NCBI GenBank assembly: GCA_009840735.1
Contig: VXNF01000014.1
Coordinates: 21,288 to 85,287, forward strand
Length of the DNA stretch: 64,000 bases
From: Acidimicrobiia bacterium
GTDB taxonomy: Bacteria; Actinomycetota; Acidimicrobiia; Acidimicrobiales; CATQHL01
Direction: 5' to 3'
Shown: positions 47,394-60,847 of the stretch, piece by piece
Layout of the letters: every line of letters begins with the position of its first letter
Numbering within the stretch: position 1 is the first letter of the stretch
Made by a program: the position numbers and the translations under genes
Notes under the pieces: generated by a model
Databases searched by the model: none
What the model was told of the DNA's origin: nothing
What the model saw: only the letters and a program-made list of their open reading frames with translations

Positions 47394-50300
47394 TCAGCGG
47401 AAGTCTCGGGAGGTTGCGGCCCCGCCGACCGGTAGGGCCTCGATCCTCTCCGCCACGATGTTGAGCGCCCCCTCTGCGTGCTCTAGGCGCCCTCGCACGA
47501 GGAGGGCGGGCGCGGTGGCCGCCAGCCGTCGGTGGTGCTGCCAGCAGCCCGGTGAGACCACCACGTTCATCAGTCCGGTCTCGTCTTCGAGGCTCACGAA
47601 AACGACGCCGCCAGCGGTGGCGGGGCGCTGGCGGTGGGTCACCACTCCCCCGACGATCACCTTCTCCCCGTCGCCGCGCCCGGCTAGGTCTGCCGCCGTG
47701 ACCGCGCCGAGGGCGGCTAGCCGGCCCCTCACGAAGCGGGTGGGGTGGCCGTCGGGCGCCACCCCGGTGGCCCAGAGGTCGGCTCGGGACACTTCGGCGG
47801 GCGACATGGCCGGCAGCGGTGGCGCCCGCTCGCCCACGACGATGCCGTTCAGCCCGCCGGCGTCGGCGCGGCCCAGCGCCCCGGCGGTCCACAGCGCGGC
47901 GCGCCTGTCGCGCTCGAAGCATCCGAAAGCCCCCGCGGAGGCGAGAGCCTCCAGCGTCGCGATCCTCAGCGACGGCACCCGCCGGCGCAGGTCCTCCATC
48001 GAGCGGTAGGGCCGGCCAGCGTCGATCTCGGCGGCCAGCCGCTCGCCGACGCCCCTCACGCCGCTGAGCCCTAGCCGCACCGCCCAGCCTCCGGCGGATT
48101 CCTCGGCCCGCTCGAGGCCTGCGGTCGCCGCCGAGGCGTTGAGGTCGGGGGTGCGCACTGCCACGCCGTGGCGGCGGGCGTCACCCACCAGGGTATGAGG
48201 CGACCAGAAGCCCATCGGCTGGGCCCGCAGCAAGGCGGCGCAGAACGCCGCCGGGTAGTGGTGCTTGATCCACGCTGAGGCGTAGACGAGGTACGAGAAC
48301 GACACGGCGTGGCTCTCGGGGAAGCCGTAGTTGGCGAAGGCGTCCAGCTTCGCCCAGATCTGCTCGCCGGTCCCTTCCTCGATGCCGTTGGCCGCCATGC
48401 CCGCGAAGAACCGCTCCTTGAGCTGCGCGAGGCGCTGGTGGCTGCGTTTGGCACCGACCGCTTGGCGGAGCCGGTCAGCTTCGGCGGCGCTGAAGCCGGC
48501 CGCGTCGATGGCGATCTGCATGAGCTGTTCCTGGAAGAGCGGCACGCCGAGGGTCTTGGCGAGCGCCCGCTCCAGCAGTGGGTGGGGGTAGGTGACCTCC
48601 TCGGTGCCGTTGCGGCGGCGGATGTAGGGGTGAACCGAACCGCCCTGGATGGGGCCGGGCCGGATGAGGGCCACCTCCACGACGAGGTCGTAGAAGCAGC
48701 GGGGCCGCAGGCGGGGCAGGGTGGCCATCTGGGCGCGCGACTCCACCTGGAACACCCCCACCGTGTCGGCCGCGCAGAGCATCTCATAGACCGCAGGCTC
48801 CTGGGGCAGGGCGGCCAGGTCGATCCGGTCGCCGTCGGACTCAGCCACGAGGTCGATGGCGTGCCGCAGCGCCGACAGCATCCCCAGCCCCAGCAGGTCG
48901 AACTTCACCAAGCCCGCCGAAGCGCAGTCGTCCTTGTCCCATTGCAGGACGCTGCGACCCTCCAGGCGCGCCCACTCCACGGGGCACACCTCGAGCACGG
49001 GCCGGTCGCAGATGACCATGCCGCCGGAGTGGACGCCCAGGTGGCGCGGGAACCCCTCGAGTTCGCCGGCCAACTCCAGGACCTCGGGCGGGACGGGGCT
49101 GGCGGGGTCGGCCGCCTCGCTGGCGACGCCGCCGCGGTCATCCACGAGCTTGGACAGCGAGTCGTCCTGTCCCAGCGCCAGCGCCGCGTCGCGCACCGCC
49201 GAGCGGGAGCGGTAACAGACGACGTTGGCCACTTGGGCGCAGTGGTGCCGCCCGTAGCGCCGGTAGACGTACTGGATGACCTCCTCGCGGCGCCCGCTCT
49301 CAATGTCCACGTCGATGTCGGGGGGGCCGTCGCGCGCCGGGGACAGGAAACGCTCGAACAGCAGGTCCAGCGAGACGGCGTCCACGTTGGTTATGCCGAG
49401 GGCGTAACACACCGCCGAGTTGGCGGCCGAGCCGCGCCCCTGACAGAGGATCCCGGACCGGCGGCAGAACTCCACGATGTCCCACACCACCAAGAAGTAG
49501 CCGCAGAACCCTAGCGACTCGATGATTCCGAGCTCCCGGTCGAGCTGCGCCCAAGCGCCGGCGACCCGCTCGACGCCGCGTAGCCCGTAGCGGCCGGCGC
49601 CGCCGTCGGCGACCAGGCGGCGCAGGTAGCCTGCCTCGTCGAGGCCGTCCGGGCAGGGGTAGGGCGGCAGGGCAGGGGCCACGAGCCGCAGATCGAAGGC
49701 GCACTGCCGTCCCAGATCGGCGGCCCGCTCGACGACCCCCGGCCAGCGGGCGAAGCGGGCCGCCTGCTCGGCGCCCGAACGCAAGTGACGCCCCGCCGGC
49801 GGCAGCCAGCCGTCGATCTCCTCGAGGCTGCGGCGCGCCCGCAGCGCCGCCAACGCGGCCGCCAGCCGCTGACGGTCCACCGAGTGGTGGTGCGCGTTGC
49901 CGGTGGCGATCAGGGACGTGCCGGTCGCGGCGGCCAAATGGGCGAGGGCCTCGTTGCGCACCGAGTCCTCCGGCAGCCCGTGGTCCCATAGCTCCACGGC
50001 CACGTTGGCCGCGCCGAAGTCAGCGATGAGCCGCTCCAGCGCGCCGCGGGCCGTGGGCAGGCCCCCTTCCACCAAGGCTCGCGGCACCGCCCCCTTGCGG
50101 CAGCCGGTGAGGATCAGCCAGCGGTCGCCGGTGCCCGCACCTCCGAGGGCCACGAGGCGTTCGTAGTCGAACCGGGGCGCTCCCTTGGCCCCTGCCAGCT
50201 GGCCCTCCCCGATGGCCCGCGCCAGCAGCGCGTAGCCGCGGGGGTCGCGGGCCAGCACCAGCAGGTGGACACCGGCGGGGTCCGGCACCCCGGCGCGCTC

Positions 50301-50756
50301 GGGATTCTTCCGGCGGCGCGGCGCGGCGGCGGCCCGCGGGGAAGGCCCTTGCGGCGCCAGGGTGAGCTCGGCGCCGAAGACCGTGGGAAGCCCCAGCGCC
50401 CCGGCCGCCTCCGCGAAGCGCACCACGCCGTAGAGGCCGTTGTGATCGCACACAGCCAGCGCTTCGAGCCCCAGCCGGACCGCCTCGGCGGCCAGCTCCT
50501 CGGGATGGGAGGCCCCGTCCAGGAACGAGAAGTTGGAATGGCAGTGCAGTTCCGCGTAGCGGACCGGCGCCCGCCGGCGCACGAGACCGGCGGGCGGCCG
50601 ATACGCCCGGCGCTGGCGCGACCGCGCCGGGCTGTCGTTCCCGTCGCCTGCCCAGATGTCGACGGGACCGCCCGCCCCTGTGCGGTCCGCGGCGGGGCGG
50701 TCCGACAGCAGGCCCTCGATGTCTCTCCACGGCACATTGGGGTTGTTCCAACCCAT
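47394..50756 (-). CDS. dnaE2: Error-prone DNA polymerase III alpha (DnaE2)
   Basis: PHP domain YAELHCHSNFSFLDGASHPEELAAEA; CQGRGSAANSAVCYALGIT; PDIDVDIESGRREEVIQYVYRRYGR; located next to imuA/imuB. Confidence 0.93.
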   Translation of the reverse strand: MGWNNPNVPWRDIEGLLSDRPAADRTGAGGPVDIWAGDGNDSPARSRQRRAYRPPAGLVRRRAPVRYAELHCHSNFSFLDGASHPEELAAEAVRLGLEALAVCDHNGLYGVVRFAEAAGALGLPTVFGAELTLAPQGPSPRAAAAPRRRKNPERAGVPDPAGVHLLVLARDPRGYALLARAIGEGQLAGAKGAPRFDYERLVALGGAGTGDRWLILTGCRKGAVPRALVEGGLPTARGALERLIADFGAANVAVELWDHGLPEDSVRNEALAHLAAATGTSLIATGNAHHHSVDRQRLAAALAALRARRSLEEIDGWLPPAGRHLRSGAEQAARFARWPGVVERAADLGRQCAFDLRLVAPALPPYPCPDGLDEAGYLRRLVADGGAGRYGLRGVERVAGAWAQLDRELGIIESLGFCGYFLVVWDIVEFCRRSGILCQGRGSAANSAVCYALGITNVDAVSLDLLFERFLSPARDGPPDIDVDIESGRREEVIQYVYRRYGRHHCAQVANVVCYRSRSAVRDAALALGQDDSLSKLVDDRGGVASEAADPASPVPPEVLELAGELEGFPRHLGVHSGGMVICDRPVLEVCPVEWARLEGRSVLQWDKDDCASAGLVKFDLLGLGMLSALRHAIDLVAESDGDRIDLAALPQEPAVYEMLCAADTVGVFQVESRAQMATLPRLRPRCFYDLVVEVALIRPGPIQGGSVHPYIRRRNGTEEVTYPHPLLERALAKTLGVPLFQEQLMQIAIDAAGFSAAEADRLRQAVGAKRSHQRLAQLKERFFAGMAANGIEEGTGEQIWAKLDAFANYGFPESHAVSFSYLVYASAWIKHHYPAAFCAALLRAQPMGFWSPHTLVGDARRHGVAVRTPDLNASAATAGLERAEESAGGWAVRLGLSGVRGVGERLAAEIDAGRPYRSMEDLRRRVPSLRIATLEALASAGAFGCFERDRRAALWTAGALGRADAGGLNGIVVGERAPPLPAMSPAEVSRADLWATGVAPDGHPTRFVRGRLAALGAVTAADLAGRGDGEKVIVGGVVTHRQRPATAGGVVFVSLEDETGLMNVVVSPGCWQHHRRLAATAPALLVRGRLEHAEGALNIVAERIEALPVGGAATSRDFR

Positions 50757-50770
50757 CCATTCACTTTATA

Positions 50771-50784
50771 CGAATAGATGTTCG
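50771..50784 (-). promoter_or_regulatory. LexA/SOS box upstream of dnaE2
   Basis: cgaatagatgttcg, close to the Gram-positive/actinobacterial CGAAC-N4-GTTCG palindrome, 15-28 nt upstream of the dnaE2 ORF start. Confidence 0.7.
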
Positions 50785-50825
50785 TATACAGGTCGTCAGA
50801 ACGAGAAATTGCGCCCCGCCCCGAG

Positions 50826-52211
50826 TCAGTCCCAGAGGGCGGTCACCTGCCAGCGCCCGCCTTCGAGCACCGCCAGACACCCCAGGCCGTCGCCGGTGAG
50901 CAACTGGAAACGGGCCCGCCGGCGGCCCCCCCGGCGGTCCCACCAGCGCTCCTCGGTGGGCCACGGCCCGGCCCAGGCCACCACCTCCGAGGGCTTGCCG
51001 CCGACTGTCAGGCGGGCCGGCGGCGCCGAGACAGAGCCCCGCCCGTCGACCCCCACGACGGCCCCGGAGGCGTCCTGCACCTCGGCGGGCCACGGCACCG
51101 GCAACAGGCGCGCCGGCGACGGGGCCGGCAGACGTCCGGGCCAAGGACGCTCGTCGCCGGCGAGCCGGCGGTCGCGCACATCGACGGTGGCGGCCGGCAC
51201 CAGCCTGATCTGCCCATCAACCTGGCGGCCGCCGCCGGCGGCGGGGACCCGCACCGCCTCGGCGCCCCAGCGCCCGCAGAGCCGGGCCGCCGCCCGGGCG
51301 GCGCGCTCGTCCGCCTCGGCCTCGCCGCCCCAGAACCCCAGCTGGCGCCCCCGGACCGGCGCCACCTCCTCCGCGCTGAGTCGCAGCCGGGTGATCCCGC
51401 CGCTGACCCGGGCGCCGTCGAACTGCCAGCGCACCCGGTCGGCGATGTCGGCAGCCGACAGCCCTCCCTCGTGGCGCCAGAGCCGCACGAGGCTCTCGCC
51501 CTCGACGGTCTCGACCTCGACGGCGACCCGCAGGCACGACATCCCGGCATCTTCGAGGCACCGGTGCAACTGCTCGGCCAGAGCGCGGGCACAGAAGGCC
51601 AGCCGGTCCAAGCGGTCGGCGGGCGGCTCGATCTCTGCGCTGACCGACCAGTCGGCGGGAGGTTCCCGCAGCGCCAGGGGCCGCCTGTCAGCCCCGGCGG
51701 CGAGGCACCGGGCACGGATTCCCTCGGTGCCGAAGCGCCCCAGCACGTCGGCCTCCGGCAGCGCCGCCAAGGCGCCGAGAGTGCGGACACCCAGACGGAC
51801 GAGCACATCGATGAGTTGGGGACACCCCAGAAGCCGCACCGGCAGGGGTGCCAGGAACGCCGCAGAGCCGCCCGGCGCAACGATGCACACCCCATCCGCC
51901 AACTCCGCCGCCAGCGCCGCGGTGAAGGGGCCATCGGCGATGCCGACCCGCACCCTCCCACGCCCTCCGAGAGCCTGCGACATGCGCTCGACGACCAGAT
52001 CGGCCAGGACCCCGTCGCCGCCGAAGTAGCGGGACGGCCCCCGCGAGGCGAAGGCGCAGGTCGCAGGCGCCGACACCTCCACCAGCGGGGTGATGGACTC
52101 GAGGGCCGCCACAGCCGCCTCGAAGGCGTCGCCGTCCAAGGGGCCGACCCCTCGAGGATCGTCCCCGGCCCGAGCGCAGCGAGCCACCAGCGCGCGAACC
52201 GGAGCGGTCAC
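50826..52211 (-). CDS. imuB: ImuB, Y-family polymerase-like protein (N-terminally short)
   Basis: ARGPSRYFGGDGVLADLV, VRVGIADGPFTAALAAELA, LPVRLLGCPQLIDVLVRLGVRTLGALAALPEADVLGRFG, putative clamp motif QLGFWG; GTGA overlap with imuA stop. Confidence 0.8.
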   Translation of the reverse strand: MTAPVRALVARCARAGDDPRGVGPLDGDAFEAAVAALESITPLVEVSAPATCAFASRGPSRYFGGDGVLADLVVERMSQALGGRGRVRVGIADGPFTAALAAELADGVCIVAPGGSAAFLAPLPVRLLGCPQLIDVLVRLGVRTLGALAALPEADVLGRFGTEGIRARCLAAGADRRPLALREPPADWSVSAEIEPPADRLDRLAFCARALAEQLHRCLEDAGMSCLRVAVEVETVEGESLVRLWRHEGGLSAADIADRVRWQFDGARVSGGITRLRLSAEEVAPVRGRQLGFWGGEAEADERAARAAARLCGRWGAEAVRVPAAGGGRQVDGQIRLVPAATVDVRDRRLAGDERPWPGRLPAPSPARLLPVPWPAEVQDASGAVVGVDGRGSVSAPPARLTVGGKPSEVVAWAGPWPTEERWWDRRGGRRRARFQLLTGDGLGCLAVLEGGRWQVTALWD

Positions 52212-52990
52212 GCCACGACCGCCGCGGCCTCGCCACCCGCCGCGGCGGCAGGCGCGGCGGCGGCCGGGCCGGCCGCAGCAGGCCCCGCGGAGACTGGCGC
52301 GCCGTCGGGGCCGGGCAGCAGCAGATCCAGCGAGCGGGGCCTGCCAGCCGCGCCGCGCCCGGTGGCCCGCACCGACACTCGGCGGGAGCGCAGCAGGCCC
52401 CAGCCGTCCCCCAGACCGCTCCAGCGGGACGAGACGACCTCCAGGCAAACGTCCACCCCACCGAGGGTGCCGCCGCCAAGAGCGCCGCCGCCGAGGGCGA
52501 TCAGCACCGATCCCCGCTCCCGCAGCTTGGCCGCCAACCGGCGACGGTCCGCCGCCCCGAGCCGGACCTCCCGACCCACCAGCACGACGTCCACCGCACC
52601 CAGAAGCGCCTCAGCGGCCTCGACGGCGGCGCGAGGCTCAGGGGCGGCCACCAGCAAGAGCCTTTCGAGCGCCAGCCCGGCCTCGGCAGCGGCAGCGAGA
52701 CCGAGACCCCCCTCCCCCACCACCGCGACCCACGAGCCGGCCGCCGACGGGCCCGAGGCGACCGCCAAGGCCAGCGAGGTGGCGCCGTCCCCGCCGGTGG
52801 CGATCACCCAGCCTCTCCGCAGAGCGCCGCCGGGGAACAGGCCCGCCAGCGGGGCCAGTAACGGCAGGGTCCGCTCATGGGCGCCGGTGAGAGGAGCGAC
52901 CCGCTCCCCCAACAGCCGCAGACGGTCCCGCCCGCTCCCGGGCCCCCCACCGGCGGCCACGCTCCCCAAGGCGTTCCCCAGACCAGACAT
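52208..52990 (-). CDS. imuA: ImuA'-like RecA-related protein
   Basis: RGWVIATGGDGATSLALAVASGPSAAGSWVAVVGEGGLGLAAAAEAGLALERLLLVAAPEP; position upstream of imuB. Start MSGLGNAL inferred. Confidence 0.75.
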   Translation of the reverse strand: MSGLGNALGSVAAGGGPGSGRDRLRLLGERVAPLTGAHERTLPLLAPLAGLFPGGALRRGWVIATGGDGATSLALAVASGPSAAGSWVAVVGEGGLGLAAAAEAGLALERLLLVAAPEPRAAVEAAEALLGAVDVVLVGREVRLGAADRRRLAAKLRERGSVLIALGGGALGGGTLGGVDVCLEVVSSRWSGLGDGWGLLRSRRVSVRATGRGAAGRPRSLDLLLPGPDGAPVSAGPAAAGPAAAAPAAAAGGEAAAVVA

Positions 52991-53001
52991 CCAACCAGTA
53001 T

Positions 53002-53015
53002 CGAACATCTGTTCG
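53002..53015 (-). promoter_or_regulatory. LexA/SOS box upstream of imuA
   Basis: cgaacatctgttcg: perfect CGAAC-N4-GTTCG palindrome just upstream of the imuA start. Confidence 0.8.
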
Positions 53016-54197: not shown

Positions 54198-57101
54198 TCA
54201 ATCCCGCTGAGGGAGAACCGGTTCTTGGCCGGGCGTCGCCGTGGGGCCGCGGTGCTGTCCGAAGTCGTCCGTCCGGAAGACTTTCATGACCTCATCGCCC
54301 AGGTGGTTGATGACCTTGACAGCGATCCGGCCAGAGGAGGGGCGCTCGAACGGCCGCGACGTGTCGCTGTGCAGGCTCTGCCAGGCCTCCGCGTCGATCT
54401 CCGCCCGCAGCGTCGTCTTGAGTGCCTTGTACGGGTAGTTGGCACCGAGGAAGTAGGCGTGGCGGACGAAGAAGCTCTCACCGTCGTAGTCGGTGTCGAT
54501 GAACCAGCAGGCGATGCCGTCGGGGCCGTCGCTGCGCACCTCACCAGTGCCGGGGTGGAACACGTCGACGCCGTTCACGCGGACCTTGATCTGGCCAGCA
54601 GCGGCACCGTCGTCGCCCGAAGCGTCGAGGATGTCGATGTCGGGTTCGCCGAAAATGACGAAGAGGTTCCCCTTGCCGGTGTTCTTGAGTTCGCCGGCCA
54701 TGTGCAGATCGGCGTTCATGCGCGCCTTGAGCACCGGGATGCGACCGAGCCTGTCGAACTCTGTGGCCTGCGCCTCGTAGTTGAATGCGCAGGCAATGAG
54801 CACATCGAAACCGGCGTCGGCGGCCTCTCGGGCTGCCTCCACGAGATCAGGACGGGCGACCGTGCCGAACTCGGGTCCGATGAATATTCCGGCGCGCTTC
54901 TCGCCATCGCCGCCGCCAGCCTCCGATCCGCTCTCGGCGTAGCGCCCCTCGGCGCAGATCATGGAGCCGGGCCACGGCGTCAGTGAGGAGAACTCGATAC
55001 GATCCTCCTTGTGTGCCTGCTGAACGCCGGCGGTGCGCAACTGTTCGAGGATCATCGCCCCGAAGTCCCCCGCCGCACCGTCGGTGCCCTCCGTGGTGCC
55101 AGCCGGATCGATCAGCTCGTCGTCCTCGTCCACACCGAGCACGCGGTGCGGCGAGATGCTCTCCACCGTGAACGGCCCGGCGACCCGGACAGTGCGAGAG
55201 TCTTCGTAGGGCTTATCGTAAAGAAGCTCGAAGTCGGCCTTGGCAGCGATAGAGGCGTCGATCTCCTGCTGCCGGGCGTGGCGCTGCCCCGACCACCGCT
55301 GATGCAGTTCTCGGGCCTCGCTGGGCCAGCGCTCATCGTCGGCGCGCGGGATCTCCCAGTCTTCCCACGACTCATCCAGCGCAGAGTTGAGTTGTTCTCG
55401 CAAGGACTCCAGCGCTGGCTGGAACCGATCCCAGATCACATCGATCTCAGAATTGTTCGCGATTGCCCCGAGCGTGACGTGCGGAACTCGTTGGTACACA
55501 AAGCCTTGACGGATATCGCGATACGACATTCCAGCCACAGGTTCGACACGTCTGACTTCCGCCTCTTTCTCCTTGCCTTCATCGCTGTCCGAAAGCAAGT
55601 AGTAGGGATATCTCGCGCCCATCACCCGAGTTCGCGCCAGTGTCAACGCGACTCGTGAAGTATCGATGGTGATCCAGCGCCGTCCCCAACGCTCGGCGGC
55701 GTTGGGGGTGGTGCCGGAGCCGCACGTCGGGTCGAGCACGAGGTCGCCCGGGTCGGTGCTCAGCAGGATGCAGCGCTCCACCACTTTGGTGTTCGTCTGC
55801 ACGACGAACACCTTGGGGTCGGTGAAGTTGCCCGTCCCGGTGTCGTCCCAGAAGTTGGTTCGGACCTTGTAGGGGAAGTCGTCCGCGAACCTGCGGTACT
55901 GAATGCTGTTGCGGGCGACGTGGATCCGCCCAGCATGCGCTAGTCGGTTCATGCCGGCCGGATAGGACGCCTTCCAGTGCGAGTTCGCGCCGGAGTCGTA
56001 CACCTTCCCCTCGAACTCGAAGGGCTGCGGCTCCGACGCGGCGCCCTGCGACTTGAGGTCGCCGGGTTTGTAGATCCGCGCCCCGTCGGGCAGAGGCACC
56101 TCGCCCCGCTCCTTCTGCTTGGTCATCCCGCGGAAGCTTCCGTCGGGGAAGTGGAGCCACCTGTATCCCTGACGGTCGTGCGCCTCCTCCCAGAGCGGCC
56201 GGTACTTGAGTTGAGGCTTCGATCTGGCGTACCAAACGATGTAGTCGCCCTTGCGGGGCAACTCTGCTGCCTGCGTGAAGCCGCTGGTCGTCACGAAGGA
56301 GATGAGGCTCACAAAGTTGTCGGATCCGAAGACTTCGTCGAGCAGGCTGCGAACGACATGAACGTTCTCGTCGCTGATCTGCAGAAAGACCGAGCCGGAC
56401 TCGTCGAGCAGCGTTCGGGCAACGAGGCAGCGGTCGCGGAGGTATGAGAGATAGGAATGAATCCCGTCCCGCCAAGTGTCGCGGAAGGCCTTGACCTGCT
56501 CCGGTTCTCGCGTGATCTCACCCAATCGATCTCCGGTAGCCGTGCGCCCGGTCGTCGACCACTGGAAGTTTGAGTTGAATTTGATGCCGTAGGGCGGATC
56601 GATGTAGATGCACTGCACTTTGCCGCGCAGCCCCTCGCGCTCGGCCAGTGAGGCCATGACCAGCAGACTGTCCCCGAGGATCATCCGGTTCGCCCAGTTG
56701 GCGTCGTGCTCGTAGAAATCGGTGCGCTCGACACCCTCCGGCAGGCCGTTGAAGTCCGAGAACAGATCGGGCTGGAACCCGCCCGCAGCCGCAGCCTCCT
56801 CTTCCCTGCTGCGACCGCTGCGCCTCATCAGGTCGTCGATCAGCGCCTTTGGATGGACCTTCTCTTGGATGTACAGGGGCGGCGCCTGGACCACGAGGTC
56901 GTGCTGGTCCTGTTCGTCCTTGCCCCGCCAGACGAGCTGCGGGTCGAGATCGCGGTTGCGGCGCGCGTACGCCACCTCGATCGAGTGCCGATCCGCTTCG
57001 GCCATCACGGAGCGGTCCTCAGCGGTCGGGATGTTGGTCCGCTTCACTGAGCTGTGGGTGATCGCCTCGACCTGCTTCGGCCCGGTGCTCCTAGCTGGCA
57101 T
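54198..57101 (-). CDS. Type III-like (beta-class) DNA methyltransferase, Mod subunit
   Basis: Motif IV IYIDPPYGIKFNSNFQW precedes motif I DLVLDPTCGSGTTPNAAERWGRRWITID. ATG one base after the hepT stop. Confidence 0.9.
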   Translation of the reverse strand: MPARSTGPKQVEAITHSSVKRTNIPTAEDRSVMAEADRHSIEVAYARRNRDLDPQLVWRGKDEQDQHDLVVQAPPLYIQEKVHPKALIDDLMRRSGRSREEEAAAAGGFQPDLFSDFNGLPEGVERTDFYEHDANWANRMILGDSLLVMASLAEREGLRGKVQCIYIDPPYGIKFNSNFQWSTTGRTATGDRLGEITREPEQVKAFRDTWRDGIHSYLSYLRDRCLVARTLLDESGSVFLQISDENVHVVRSLLDEVFGSDNFVSLISFVTTSGFTQAAELPRKGDYIVWYARSKPQLKYRPLWEEAHDRQGYRWLHFPDGSFRGMTKQKERGEVPLPDGARIYKPGDLKSQGAASEPQPFEFEGKVYDSGANSHWKASYPAGMNRLAHAGRIHVARNSIQYRRFADDFPYKVRTNFWDDTGTGNFTDPKVFVVQTNTKVVERCILLSTDPGDLVLDPTCGSGTTPNAAERWGRRWITIDTSRVALTLARTRVMGARYPYYLLSDSDEGKEKEAEVRRVEPVAGMSYRDIRQGFVYQRVPHVTLGAIANNSEIDVIWDRFQPALESLREQLNSALDESWEDWEIPRADDERWPSEARELHQRWSGQRHARQQEIDASIAAKADFELLYDKPYEDSRTVRVAGPFTVESISPHRVLGVDEDDELIDPAGTTEGTDGAAGDFGAMILEQLRTAGVQQAHKEDRIEFSSLTPWPGSMICAEGRYAESGSEAGGGDGEKRAGIFIGPEFGTVARPDLVEAAREAADAGFDVLIACAFNYEAQATEFDRLGRIPVLKARMNADLHMAGELKNTGKGNLFVIFGEPDIDILDASGDDGAAAGQIKVRVNGVDVFHPGTGEVRSDGPDGIACWFIDTDYDGESFFVRHAYFLGANYPYKALKTTLRAEIDAEAWQSLHSDTSRPFERPSSGRIAVKVINHLGDEVMKVFRTDDFGQHRGPTATPGQEPVLPQRD

Positions 57102-57102
57102 C

Positions 57103-57459
57103 TTACGACCCCGCGTCGCCCGCCTCGCCAATCAACTCGCGCAGCTGCGGTAGAAGTTCGGGGATTCCTTCGCAGATAACTTCCCAGAGGGTGTTGTCAT
57201 CGATCCTGAGGTATCCGTGTACTAGCCGGTTGCGCATCCCGGTGATCTCACGCCACGGAATCTCCGGGTGCGCGTTCCGGATGGATTCTGCGACACTGTT
57301 CGCGGCCTCGCCGAGGATAGCGAGGTTCCACAGCACGGCGTCATTGATGGCGTCGGTGGCGAAGAACGTGTCGTGATCCAGCCCCGCCGTGTACTCCTCG
57401 ACCTTCGTGCAGCACTCGATCATGTCGCGGACGTAGAGGTCCCAGCGGCGCTCAGACAT
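57103..57459 (-). CDS. hepT: HepT-like HEPN-domain RNase toxin (DUF86)
   Basis: DMIECCTKVEEYTAGLDHDTFFATDAINDAVLWNLAILGEAANSVAES...PWREITGMRNRLVHGYLRID with RX4HXY (RNRLVHGY). Confidence 0.88.
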   Translation of the reverse strand: MSERRWDLYVRDMIECCTKVEEYTAGLDHDTFFATDAINDAVLWNLAILGEAANSVAESIRNAHPEIPWREITGMRNRLVHGYLRIDDNTLWEVICEGIPELLPQLRELIGEAGDAGS

Positions 57460-60400
57460 GGATAGCCTCGGCCTCGACGTTCGGACGGATCTCAGGTCGT
57501 AGGCTCGGTTCGACGACGAGGTCCACGGGGCGACCGAGCAGTTCTTCCAAGTAAGCCTCTAGGTCGAAGGGGCGAGTCCAGCCGGGACGCTCGTCAAGTC
57601 GTACGAGGACGTCGATGTCGCTGTCGGGCTTGGCCTCGTCGCGAACCGTCGATCCGAAAAGCGCGATGTCGACGACGCCGAAGCGATCTGCCATCGTCGC
57701 TTTGTGCTCGCGCAGCAGGGCCAGGACGTTCTCGGCGCTCAGCGGCGCACCGGCACCGGACGTCTCGTGTCTCCCGTCGAGGGCCGCTTCGATCAGCGCC
57801 GCAAAGTTCGCCTGCATCGTGTGCCGGTCGGTGAACTCGGCGAACGACCAGCGTCCGTGCCCGCCGAGGTTATTCACCCCTGGCACCCAGTACGTCTCCA
57901 TCGTGGCCTTCTTCTCCTTGGCGTCTTCGCCGCGGTAGCCCTTGACCTCCACGACGAGATGCAACGGATCGGCAGTGCCGCGCCCGTCGTCCACTAGAAC
58001 CACGAAGTCGGGCACGTAGCGATGCGGCTCGGAGCCGATCCGATACGGCACCTCTAGTCCGAGGCCCTGATTCTTGACGTAGGCGAGCACCCGCGGATGC
58101 GACTCTGCCACCCGGCAGAAGTCGCCCTCCCACTCGCTGTCGCACACGGCCCAGTTGACGTGGCTGCGGCCTGGATGGGTCTGCCATAGATTCTGTTTCG
58201 AGGTCGCGAACCGCACCTGGCGTGTGGAACCGGCAGGGTTGTAGGGGTCGAGCACGGCCTTGACGGGCATCTCGCCGGCGAACCGGCGAGTAATCCCCGC
58301 CGTGATCCGCTCGCAGGCAATATCGGCCAGGCTCTGGTACATCAGCTGCGCCGGATAGGTCCCACCCTCGCAGATCAGATGCCCGTCGAGCCAGCGGCGC
58401 GTGATCCGCTTGAGCTGACCGAACAGATGGAGTTTCGGCTCCTCGGCGGGGTCACGCCACTTCGTCTCAAGCAGACGACCGGTGAGACGGTAGGCGATCG
58501 TCGAGCGCCGCAGATCGCCGAGATGGTGGACGTCAAGGTCGATTCCGGCGCCGATGATCCCCTCGTTGCGGGTGACCGTCGGTCCGATGTGCTCGGGAGT
58601 GAGGACGAACGTCGAGTCATCGGTGAAGGTGGCGTCGAGCCGTTCGTCTGGAAGCTCCACCCGGTAGCCCGCGACGCGCGGGAATCGGATCTCAAGATGG
58701 TCGCGCTCCGGCGAAACGGCGTGGACCTGCACGATCCTGCGGGGCGACTTCGGTGGCGCCACAGCCGGTTTCGCCGTGAAGTCGAACGGGATGCCGAGCA
58801 CGTCCGCGTACTCGACCTCGAAGAGGTCGTCGTCATTCAGGTCGTAGGACTGGCGGCGCAGGGCGCGTCCGATCACCTGCTCGCAGAGCAGCTGCGTGCC
58901 GAACGCACGCACCCCCAGAACATGGGTCACAGTGTTGGCGTCCCAGCCTTCGCTCAGCATCGCGACCGAGACGACGCAGCGAATCGACTCGCCTAGCTGG
59001 CCGGGCTTGCCGACGGTGTTCATGACCTCGCGCAGCAGGTCCGCGTCGCTGATCTGCTCGGCCGCGGCGCGGTCACCGGTGCGCTGCACCTGCTCTCTGC
59101 GGAAGCGCTCGATCTCGGGCGCGGCCGCGGCCCGGAAGGTCTGGTCGAGACCCTCGCCGGACTCGAGCTGTTGACTGTCGATCAGCAAGGTGCGGGGACG
59201 GGCGTACCGCTCGCCGTTCTCGTCGAAGTTTCGGAACAGCTCCAGTCTCCCCTGCTGAAAGGTCTTCGTGCCGTCCTGTCGCTCCTGATGAAACCCGGAG
59301 ATGTAGTCATAGACCAGCTTGGAGGTGGCGGTGTTGTTGCACACGACGATGAAACAGGGTGGCACGCCGACGTTCGCCTGCTCCCAGAGCTCGAACGTCT
59401 CGGCGTAATGTCCGTAGACCGCGTCGAGCGCGGTCTGCAGCTCGACTGGGATGCTGAGCGGGTCGAGCACTCCGGCCTGCCGCCGACCCTGGCGCGGCAT
59501 CTTCGTCCCGATGTGACCCCAGAGGTTGCGGAATACGGGTCCTTCGACACCGGATACGTTGTCGGCCACCGGCACGCGGGGGAGCTTCACGATCCCGCAC
59601 TCGATGGCGTCCATGAGGGAGAAGTCGCTCATCGTCCACGGGAAGAGCGTGCCCTCGGCGTAGCCGGAGCCGCGCAGGAAGAAGGGCGTTGCCGACAAGT
59701 CGATCACCCGTCGCAGATCCAGCTTGCGGCCCACCGCTTCGAGGCCGCCGATCCAGAGTCGAGCCGCCTCGCGGTTCCGCTTGGCCTCCTCCTGGTCGTC
59801 GCCCTTCAGTTCGTCCTCGGCGCTCTCGCCCGGCTTCTGCCGGTAGCAGTGGTGGGCCTCATCGTTGAAGGCGAGGATCGACCGCATGCCCAACAGCTCG
59901 GGAATCACCCTCCGCAGCATCTGCCCTTCGGTCTCGATCGACTCGACTTCGGGGCCTCTGCCTTGGAGCAGCGAGCGTCCGACCTTCTTCAGATCTAGGG
60001 TCTCGCGCCGCTTGAAGGCGTGGTAGTTGGTGATGACGATCCGCGCCCGCTCGACGTCTGCGAGCATGTCGCGGGGCACAAGTTCGCGGCTCTGGTAGTA
60101 GCTGTCGGGATCGTTCGGCTGCAAGACGCGCAGCCGGTCGCGGATGGTGAGCCCGGGCGTGACGACCAGGAATCCCTTCGTGAAGTTGCGGCTGGCCGGC
60201 TTCCTGACGGCGTTGACCGTCTGCCAGGCGATCAACATCGCCATGACCGTCGTCTTGCCCGCACCGGTCGCCAGCTTGAGTGCCAGCCGCGCCAGCCCCG
60301 GGTTCGCCTCCTCGTTGGCGGCGCGCAGGTGATCGAGAATGACTCGTGTCCCGCGGCCGCCGCGGCGAGGCGCCACTTCTGTCAGCCAGATGACTGTCTC

Positions 60401-60847
60401 GACTGCCTCCAGTTGACAGAAGAACGGGCGGATGTCACTGAAGTTGTGGTGGCGCCAGTGCTTCAGCAGCCGGCCAGTCTCTGGAGTCACAGCCCAATCC
60501 GGCTCTGGAAGTTGCCGCCATCGGTCGACGTGTTTACGCAACGCGTTGATAGTGGAGGTCGGGTCGTATTGCTGGTTCCCGCCGGAGAGCCCCTCCCCTT
60601 CGTCCAGCGCCAACGCTGGCTGCGCGGCACCGTGCTGCGCTCTGGGTTTGGGCACGGCTGTGATGTAGGCAGCCGGGCGGCGTTCGGCGAGCACCCGACC
60701 TGTGGGTTGGCGGGCGTCGTCGAGTTCCCAATGGCGCGCCGGGTACTCGTACGGCGAGTTGAGGATGGGAGACTCGAAGAATCGGTCCATCAGTGACAGC
60801 TCGATCTTGCCGCGGCTACTCCGCGGTCGGGGTGGCCGATGCGCCAC
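57452..60847 (-). CDS. Type III-like restriction helicase/nuclease (Res; BPTD_3080-like) with a fused C-terminal MntA-type nucleotidyltransferase
   Basis: Walker A LALKLATGAGKTTVMAMLIAW, NDEAHHCY, IDLSATPFF, QVIGRALRR, PD-(D/E)XK-like YVPDFVVLVDDG..LHLVVEVKGYRGEDAKEKK, then LSAENVLALLREHKATMADRFGVVDIALFGSTVRDEAKPDSDIDVLVRLDE...VDLVVEPSLRPEIRPNVEAEAIHV. Confidence 0.88.
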   Translation of the reverse strand: MAHRPPRPRSSRGKIELSLMDRFFESPILNSPYEYPARHWELDDARQPTGRVLAERRPAAYITAVPKPRAQHGAAQPALALDEGEGLSGGNQQYDPTSTINALRKHVDRWRQLPEPDWAVTPETGRLLKHWRHHNFSDIRPFFCQLEAVETVIWLTEVAPRRGGRGTRVILDHLRAANEEANPGLARLALKLATGAGKTTVMAMLIAWQTVNAVRKPASRNFTKGFLVVTPGLTIRDRLRVLQPNDPDSYYQSRELVPRDMLADVERARIVITNYHAFKRRETLDLKKVGRSLLQGRGPEVESIETEGQMLRRVIPELLGMRSILAFNDEAHHCYRQKPGESAEDELKGDDQEEAKRNREAARLWIGGLEAVGRKLDLRRVIDLSATPFFLRGSGYAEGTLFPWTMSDFSLMDAIECGIVKLPRVPVADNVSGVEGPVFRNLWGHIGTKMPRQGRRQAGVLDPLSIPVELQTALDAVYGHYAETFELWEQANVGVPPCFIVVCNNTATSKLVYDYISGFHQERQDGTKTFQQGRLELFRNFDENGERYARPRTLLIDSQQLESGEGLDQTFRAAAAPEIERFRREQVQRTGDRAAAEQISDADLLREVMNTVGKPGQLGESIRCVVSVAMLSEGWDANTVTHVLGVRAFGTQLLCEQVIGRALRRQSYDLNDDDLFEVEYADVLGIPFDFTAKPAVAPPKSPRRIVQVHAVSPERDHLEIRFPRVAGYRVELPDERLDATFTDDSTFVLTPEHIGPTVTRNEGIIGAGIDLDVHHLGDLRRSTIAYRLTGRLLETKWRDPAEEPKLHLFGQLKRITRRWLDGHLICEGGTYPAQLMYQSLADIACERITAGITRRFAGEMPVKAVLDPYNPAGSTRQVRFATSKQNLWQTHPGRSHVNWAVCDSEWEGDFCRVAESHPRVLAYVKNQGLGLEVPYRIGSEPHRYVPDFVVLVDDGRGTADPLHLVVEVKGYRGEDAKEKKATMETYWVPGVNNLGGHGRWSFAEFTDRHTMQANFAALIEAALDGRHETSGAGAPLSAENVLALLREHKATMADRFGVVDIALFGSTVRDEAKPDSDIDVLVRLDERPGWTRPFDLEAYLEELLGRPVDLVVEPSLRPEIRPNVEAEAIHV

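Follow-up and report, generated by a model that had tools for sequence, protein, structure and literature searches.

A type III-like restriction subunit that probably carries the antitoxin of the HepT toxin encoded directly behind it

A stretch of 64,000 nucleotides from an Acidimicrobiia bacterium (contig VXNF01000014.1, positions 21,288 to 85,287; the window) contains a type III-like restriction-modification (R-M) operon in which a type VII toxin-antitoxin (TA) module is probably embedded, the restriction subunit Res doubling as the AMPylating antitoxin of the neighboring toxin HepT. R-M systems and TA modules are often neighbors, and their coupling has been mostly guesswork. An antidote covalently fused to the restriction subunit, found in more than one lineage and for two unrelated types of antitoxin, makes that coupling testable; if the reading is correct, MntA-HepT modules gain a concrete candidate signal, namely the loss or inhibition of Res. 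The features of the operon are collected in Table 1.

The res-mnt gene is a single open frame of 1131 aa with no internal stops. The GTG from which this length is counted (60847) is merely the earliest start codon in the frame; translation more likely begins at the ATG at 60790 (residue 20), giving about 1112 aa, because homologs begin near RFFxxPILNSP. Membership of the BPTD_3080 family is clear from NCBIfam restr_BPTD_3080 (NF046055; 1306 bits against a curated cut-off of 800, residues 24-1018), and Pfam identifies ResIII (PF04851) in the Res part. The original prediction had described an uninterrupted frame with helicase motifs and a PD-(D/E)XK segment, and both hold up in an alignment of 27 homologs, where GAGKT, DEAH, SATPFF, and QVIGRALRR are invariant or almost so and the nuclease residues D947, E967, and K969 are invariant. 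The Pfam model RE_endonuc scores 19.7 bits on Res, slightly under its gathering score of 23.4, and a PDB sequence search with the Res part returned no match. The combination of SF2 helicase motifs and a PD-(D/E)XK nuclease in Res, with a Mod methylase as partner, is that of a type III R-M system.

Past a variable linker, the frame continues into an MntA-type nucleotidyltransferase (MNT) domain. PF01909 (NTP_transf_2) matches residues 1045-1129 and exceeds its gathering score (E 2.4e-14), so both halves of the protein, for which profile searches had been proposed, are assigned; with PADLOC, the tail also matches the PDC-S09 models (E 1e-24, best 9.5e-27). The signature is intact (GS1065-1066, X10, D1077-x-D1079), as is the third Asp, D1109, in agreement with what had been read from the letters. 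The span first proposed for the domain, 57452-57745, is correct in its 97 aa and includes the stop codon, which does not belong to it. The domain ends without the long C-terminal alpha4 seen in the S. oneidensis type, and its sole match in a PDB sequence search is 1wot, a stand-alone MNT.

The end of res-mnt overlaps by 8 nt the start of hepT, which encodes a predicted HEPN RNase toxin (PF01934, E 5.3e-27); this overlap is found in all Res-MNT fusions and is also kept in unfused relatives. Tyr83 of the RX4HXY motif is the predicted AMPylation target. A PF01909 domain with GSX10DXD adjoining the gene for a PF01934 protein with RX4HXY is the arrangement of type VII modules. The AlphaFold2 monomer of HepT (predicted local distance difference test, pLDDT, 89.5) adopts the known HepT fold; its best PDB matches are the HepT/HEPN toxins 6m6u, 5yep, and 7bxo, with a Foldseek probability of 1.00 and a template modeling score of 0.66-0.70 but an E of merely 0.013 to 0.07. 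A PDB sequence search with HepT gave no match. The methyltransferase gene mod begins 1 nt past the hepT stop.

Table 1. Features of the res-mnt, hepT, and mod operon (positions in the window unless a locus is named)
Feature	Position	Strand	Details
res-mnt fusion ORF (open reading frame)	57452..60847	(-)	1131 aa counted from GTG 60847
BPTD_3080-family restriction helicase-nuclease	57794..60778	(-)	residues 24-1018, NF046055
Walker A ATGAGKT	60251..60271	(-)	residues 193-199
DEAH box	59852..59863	(-)	residues 329-332
Helicase motif VI QVIGRALRR	58853..58879	(-)	residues 657-665
PD-(D/E)XK-like nuclease core	57941..58009	(-)	D947, E967, K969
Variable linker	57746..57817	(-)	residues 1011-1034, about 24 aa
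MNT (MntA-type) domain	57455..57745	(-)	residues 1035-1131, 97 aa; PF01909, PDC-S09
GSX10DXD motif	57611..57655	(-)	residues 1065-1079
Third acidic residue D1109 (VDLVV)	57521..57523	(-)	
Overlap of res-mnt end with hepT start	57452..57459	(-)	8 nt, ATGTCTGA
hepT, HEPN RNase toxin (predicted)	57103..57459	(-)	118 aa; PF01934
RX4HXY motif RNRLVHGY	57211..57234	(-)	R76-Y83
mod, type III-like N6/N4 DNA methyltransferase	54198..57101	(-)	PADLOC MTase_III 1290 bits, PF01555
Res C-termini with putative VapB toxin-binding tail	L087:5813-6360, L124:4487-5037, L118:5813-6010		

A second species of the genus (G007) carries the fusion at a syntenic locus, with the same genes in the same order and the same AMP-ligase neighbor upstream. 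Between the two species Res-MNT is 91% identical and hepT 68%, and MNT residues 1056-1131 are 98.7% identical (dS, synonymous divergence, 0.29). The ratio of nonsynonymous to synonymous divergence (dN/dS) is 0.14 in the Res core, about 0.50 in the linker (residues 1011-1045), and 0.28 in HepT. Because it is only 0.02 over the MNT core, the catalytic tail is being maintained by selection while fused.

Aligned with locus L005/L190, the window (54198-60847) has a dS of 0.33 over res-MNT that jumps to about 0.7 past MNT, in hepT and the N-terminus of mod, which suggests that the MNT/hepT junction is a recombination border between the two species. The identity of mod in this alignment is lower further in (about 62%) than at the N-terminus.

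The Res tail plus MNT was compared with about 85,000 species genomes, and the best 80 loci were examined; most of the genomes concerned here are metagenome-assembled genomes (MAGs). Three match the whole query: an alphaproteobacterial MAG (L059) has a true Res-MNT fusion, a member of the Bryobacterales (L060) has one in-frame TAA dividing res from mntA, and in a member of the Chloroflexi (L127) res and mntA overlap by ATGA; hepT and mod come next in all three. Another locus (L093) has mntA plus a hepT fragment behind one extra gene, and tblastn found no MNT or HepT beside Res at the remaining loci of the 80, with a weak match 5 kb off at L103. Sampling of genomes with the MNT profile added a fourth fusion (G516, L172), from the same class as L059 and with a similar linker, and an unfused res-mntA pair (G837, L178). 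Res-MNT followed by hepT and mod is found outside the genus in these two genomes, L059 and G516; together with G007 they supply the further fusions beside hepT that the original prediction had suggested seeking. The catalytic motifs are intact in all four fusions and in their HepT partners, and hepT is directly next in each. In G124 (L189/L026), a genome of the window's own phylum, res and mntA overlap by ATGA and mntA is intact, with hepT cut to a short stub; a second antitoxin-like ORF and VapBC are inserted ahead of its mod.

Among 40 plasmid records of BPTD_3080 Res, none listed reaches through MNT, and the five Res relatives on viral contigs align only up to query residue 99, with no MNT or HepT detected at those loci by tblastn. 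Long frames of 337-613 aa upstream of other MNT matches were rejected as further Res-MNT fusions; most are non-coding high-GC frames before ordinary stand-alone MNTs, and one, L211, is an MNT-HEPN fusion. Recoding at one TGA, flagged in the MNT matches of four genomes, was also rejected; in the three that were reconstructed, the ATG of the gene comes only after this stop. A different order is seen at L173 (G808:C47), where res and mod are followed by mntA-hepT downstream of mod on the same strand, and L211 (G817:C58) encodes MNT and then HEPN in one polypeptide whose RX4HXY region reads RNLIAHEY.

Res-MNT fusion is likely to have occurred at least twice, because a tree of the Res core rejects grouping all four fusions in one clade (approximately unbiased test, p=3.6e-7). 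In this tree the fusion of the window and G007 clusters with the unfused res-mntA loci L060, L127, and L178 (support 92/90), and L059/L172 are placed with L061 and L068, both of which are without MNT. The MNT alignment (96 columns) does not discriminate; with the four fusions constrained together, p is 0.33. A possible route to fusion is visible, since unfused res-mntA-hepT-mod relatives show either an ATGA overlap or a lone in-frame TAA.

A second type of antitoxin appears on the same subunit. In three Gemmatimonadota MAGs (L087, L124, and L129), a Res of the same family ends in ...LIRAGGSDPEAEFIPRRRPWA, and the gene that follows overlaps it by ATGA and encodes a PIN/VapC-like protein. Three free VapB antitoxins align with this tail over their C-terminal part; two are annotated as such and have VapC partners that resemble the VapC-like protein beside Res. 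In a shuffle test, 0 of 1000 shuffles aligned as well for two of the VapBs and 4 of 1000 for the third. A longer VapB-like tail in Thiodictyon (L118; 0 of 1000 for all three) has no VapC directly after it and is a relic whose cognate VapC is gone. Judged by alignment, the putative VapB-tail fusions are a parallel to Res-MNT in the same Res family, with the antitoxin likewise on the Res C-terminus and the toxin gene (except at L118) directly next; the VapB tail would be a peptide neutralizer, whereas MNT is predicted to be an AMPylating enzyme. The res-mod gap is an insertion hotspot in many loci: across L059-L138, Pfam identified Fic/SoFic, PIN, HEPN/MNT, AlbA_2 (Schlafen), TumE, GmrSD, a DUF1016 nuclease, and BRO-N in it, along with uncharacterized ORFs, and at other loci of this set res and mod almost touch.

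In the MntA-HepT family (for example S. oneidensis SO_3165/SO_3166), MntA AMPylates the Tyr of RX4HXY (a covalent tri-AMPylation) and silences the HepT RNase; the affinity between the two is modest and it is the modification that matters, the reversal enzyme is not known, and the physiological trigger is unknown (PMC7641770). In L. pneumophila, a HEPN tetramer is the substrate of an MNT that, like the one in the window, is short and has no long alpha4 (PMC11586414). By analogy, the HepT encoded here would be toxic and would be AMPylated by the MNT domain. The helicase-nuclease part of Res-MNT would restrict unmodified DNA, and the tethered MNT would keep the co-translated HepT RNase inactive by oligo-AMPylation of its Tyr83. 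Translation, probably coupled, would yield Res-MNT before HepT, and each HepT would meet its antidote on Res. With the antidote inseparable from the restriction subunit, mutations stopping Res synthesis would also abolish the antidote, and the cell would be addicted to the operon; were Res-MNT depleted with hepT mRNA still translated, new unmodified HepT would build up as a second line of defense. The genomic context is consistent with either an addiction or a back-up role.

Several observations weigh against assigning an AMPylating antitoxin role to Res. Both proteins miss the 60-bit equivalog cut-offs of NCBIfam (38.9-44.4 bits with NF047752, MntA, and 39.7 bits with NF047751, HepT); MNT and HepT are homologous to type VII MntA/HepT yet lie outside the curated equivalogs. 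The full-length AlphaFold2 model of Res-MNT is poor (pLDDT 54), which bears on the placement of the tethered MNT. The fusion is also rare, the only frames of >1000 aa among the MNT matches found in about 1,120 sampled genomes being three Res-MNT genes, and relatives hold res, mntA, and hepT as separate genes.

In a rival reading the fusion is near-neutral, loss of a stop having joined res and mntA into a protein that works exactly like an unfused addiction module and adds no sensing. This is a serious possibility, if a little short of an even one: in unfused close relatives the two genes are only a 4-nt overlap (ATGA) or a single in-frame stop away from fusion, the linker is variable and under relaxed selection, many relatives carry TA or defense genes inserted in the res-mod gap, and the fusion is rare. 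Against it stand the repetition within one Res family (at least two Res-MNT fusions and the separate VapB-tail fusions, directly ahead of a toxin gene) and the retention of the fusion in two species at a syntenic locus.

A stronger proposal, made in the original prediction, that HepT is checked only while Res-MNT is intact or free, so that a phage degrading or sequestering Res would unleash the HepT RNase and abortive infection, seems unlikely as it stands. The fusion does tie antidote supply to Res, and the masking of PrrC by EcoprrI is a precedent (PMC3710099). However, the AMP units are attached covalently, and no enzyme that reverses the modification is known (PMC7641770), so HepT that was already modified would stay neutral; because of this, such a guard would need newly made HepT on loss of Res. 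DNA mimics and other phage inhibitors of the helicase or nuclease need not affect the tethered MNT, and in close relatives with unfused res-mntA-hepT-mod the module persists at the locus without fusion. In the VapB-tail fusions the antitoxin is likewise tied to Res but acts non-covalently; they would suit a guard role better than Res-MNT, because neutralization there works by binding and VapC would be freed more directly if Res were lost. A broader generalization, in which the BPTD_3080-type Res C-terminus is a recurrent carrier of antitoxins placed directly ahead of their toxin genes (MNT twice, VapB tails in other lineages) and the toxin is gated by whether the restriction complex is present or by its state, as a guard or addiction circuit, is offered tentatively and is rather doubtful.

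A relic MNT tail, or one repurposed to modify a different protein (Mod, Res itself, or a phage protein), with HepT controlled by some other antitoxin, for instance the MntA paralog on G000:C25, is improbable. The genome does contain a second, free mntA-hepT pair (L002, G000:C25:21721-21996; 47.9% and 55.2% identical), making cross-neutralization possible, and G124 retains mntA although its hepT is truncated; but all catalytic residues are kept, dN/dS is 0.02, and an intact hepT lies directly behind four of four fusions. Very improbable is an artefact of assembly or frameshift, or an MNT made from an internal start, as the original prediction itself had considered: these are MAG data, and an ATG lies at residue 1052 (TMADRFG), its equivalent in L059 being preceded by AAGGAGGAG, but four genomes share the fusion and its MNT is under purifying selection, and the internal start lacks a Shine-Dalgarno sequence in the window, reads VAR in G007, and would remove helix 1 of the domain. 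The start codons of free mntA genes fall around residue 1035-1040, and the window has none there.

The reading of Res-MNT as both restriction subunit and antitoxin sets the operon apart from known systems. Type VII MntA-HepT modules (S. oneidensis and the L. pneumophila HEPN-MNT) likewise have PF01909/GSX10DXD upstream of PF01934/RX4HXY in overlapping genes, but there the antitoxin is a free small protein (<150 aa), and here it is the C-terminal domain of a restriction subunit of roughly 1100 aa. BPTD_3080-family (type III-like) R-M systems share the Res family and a type III-like Mod, and the window differs in the extra C-terminal MNT and in hepT between res and mod. PDC-S09, a PADLOC phage-defense candidate found embedded in other defense operons, is matched by the MNT, which also lies between res and mod; it is handled as a single gene, whereas in the window it is a domain of Res. 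A published survey proposes that HEPN RNases back R-M enzymes as a second line in the manner of PrrC; the HEPN fusions it lists are with helicases, with nucleases, and in occasional cases with MNT (PMC3710099). In PrrC/EcoprrI and the HEPN-R-M fusions, R-M proteins mask the RNase or are joined to it, likely as a second line of defense, whereas in the window it is the enzymatic antitoxin that is joined to Res, and the RNase is a free protein. A HEPN RNase backing up an R-M system is therefore already published, and the fusion of the antitoxin to Res is the new part; no paper describing it was found in the open-access literature, preprints and subscription papers being outside the scope.

Elsewhere in the window, positions 47394-53008 (-) resemble an imuA'-imuB-dnaE2 mutasome cassette, with putative PHP-type DNA polymerase III alpha, Y-family-like, and RecA-like ORFs.

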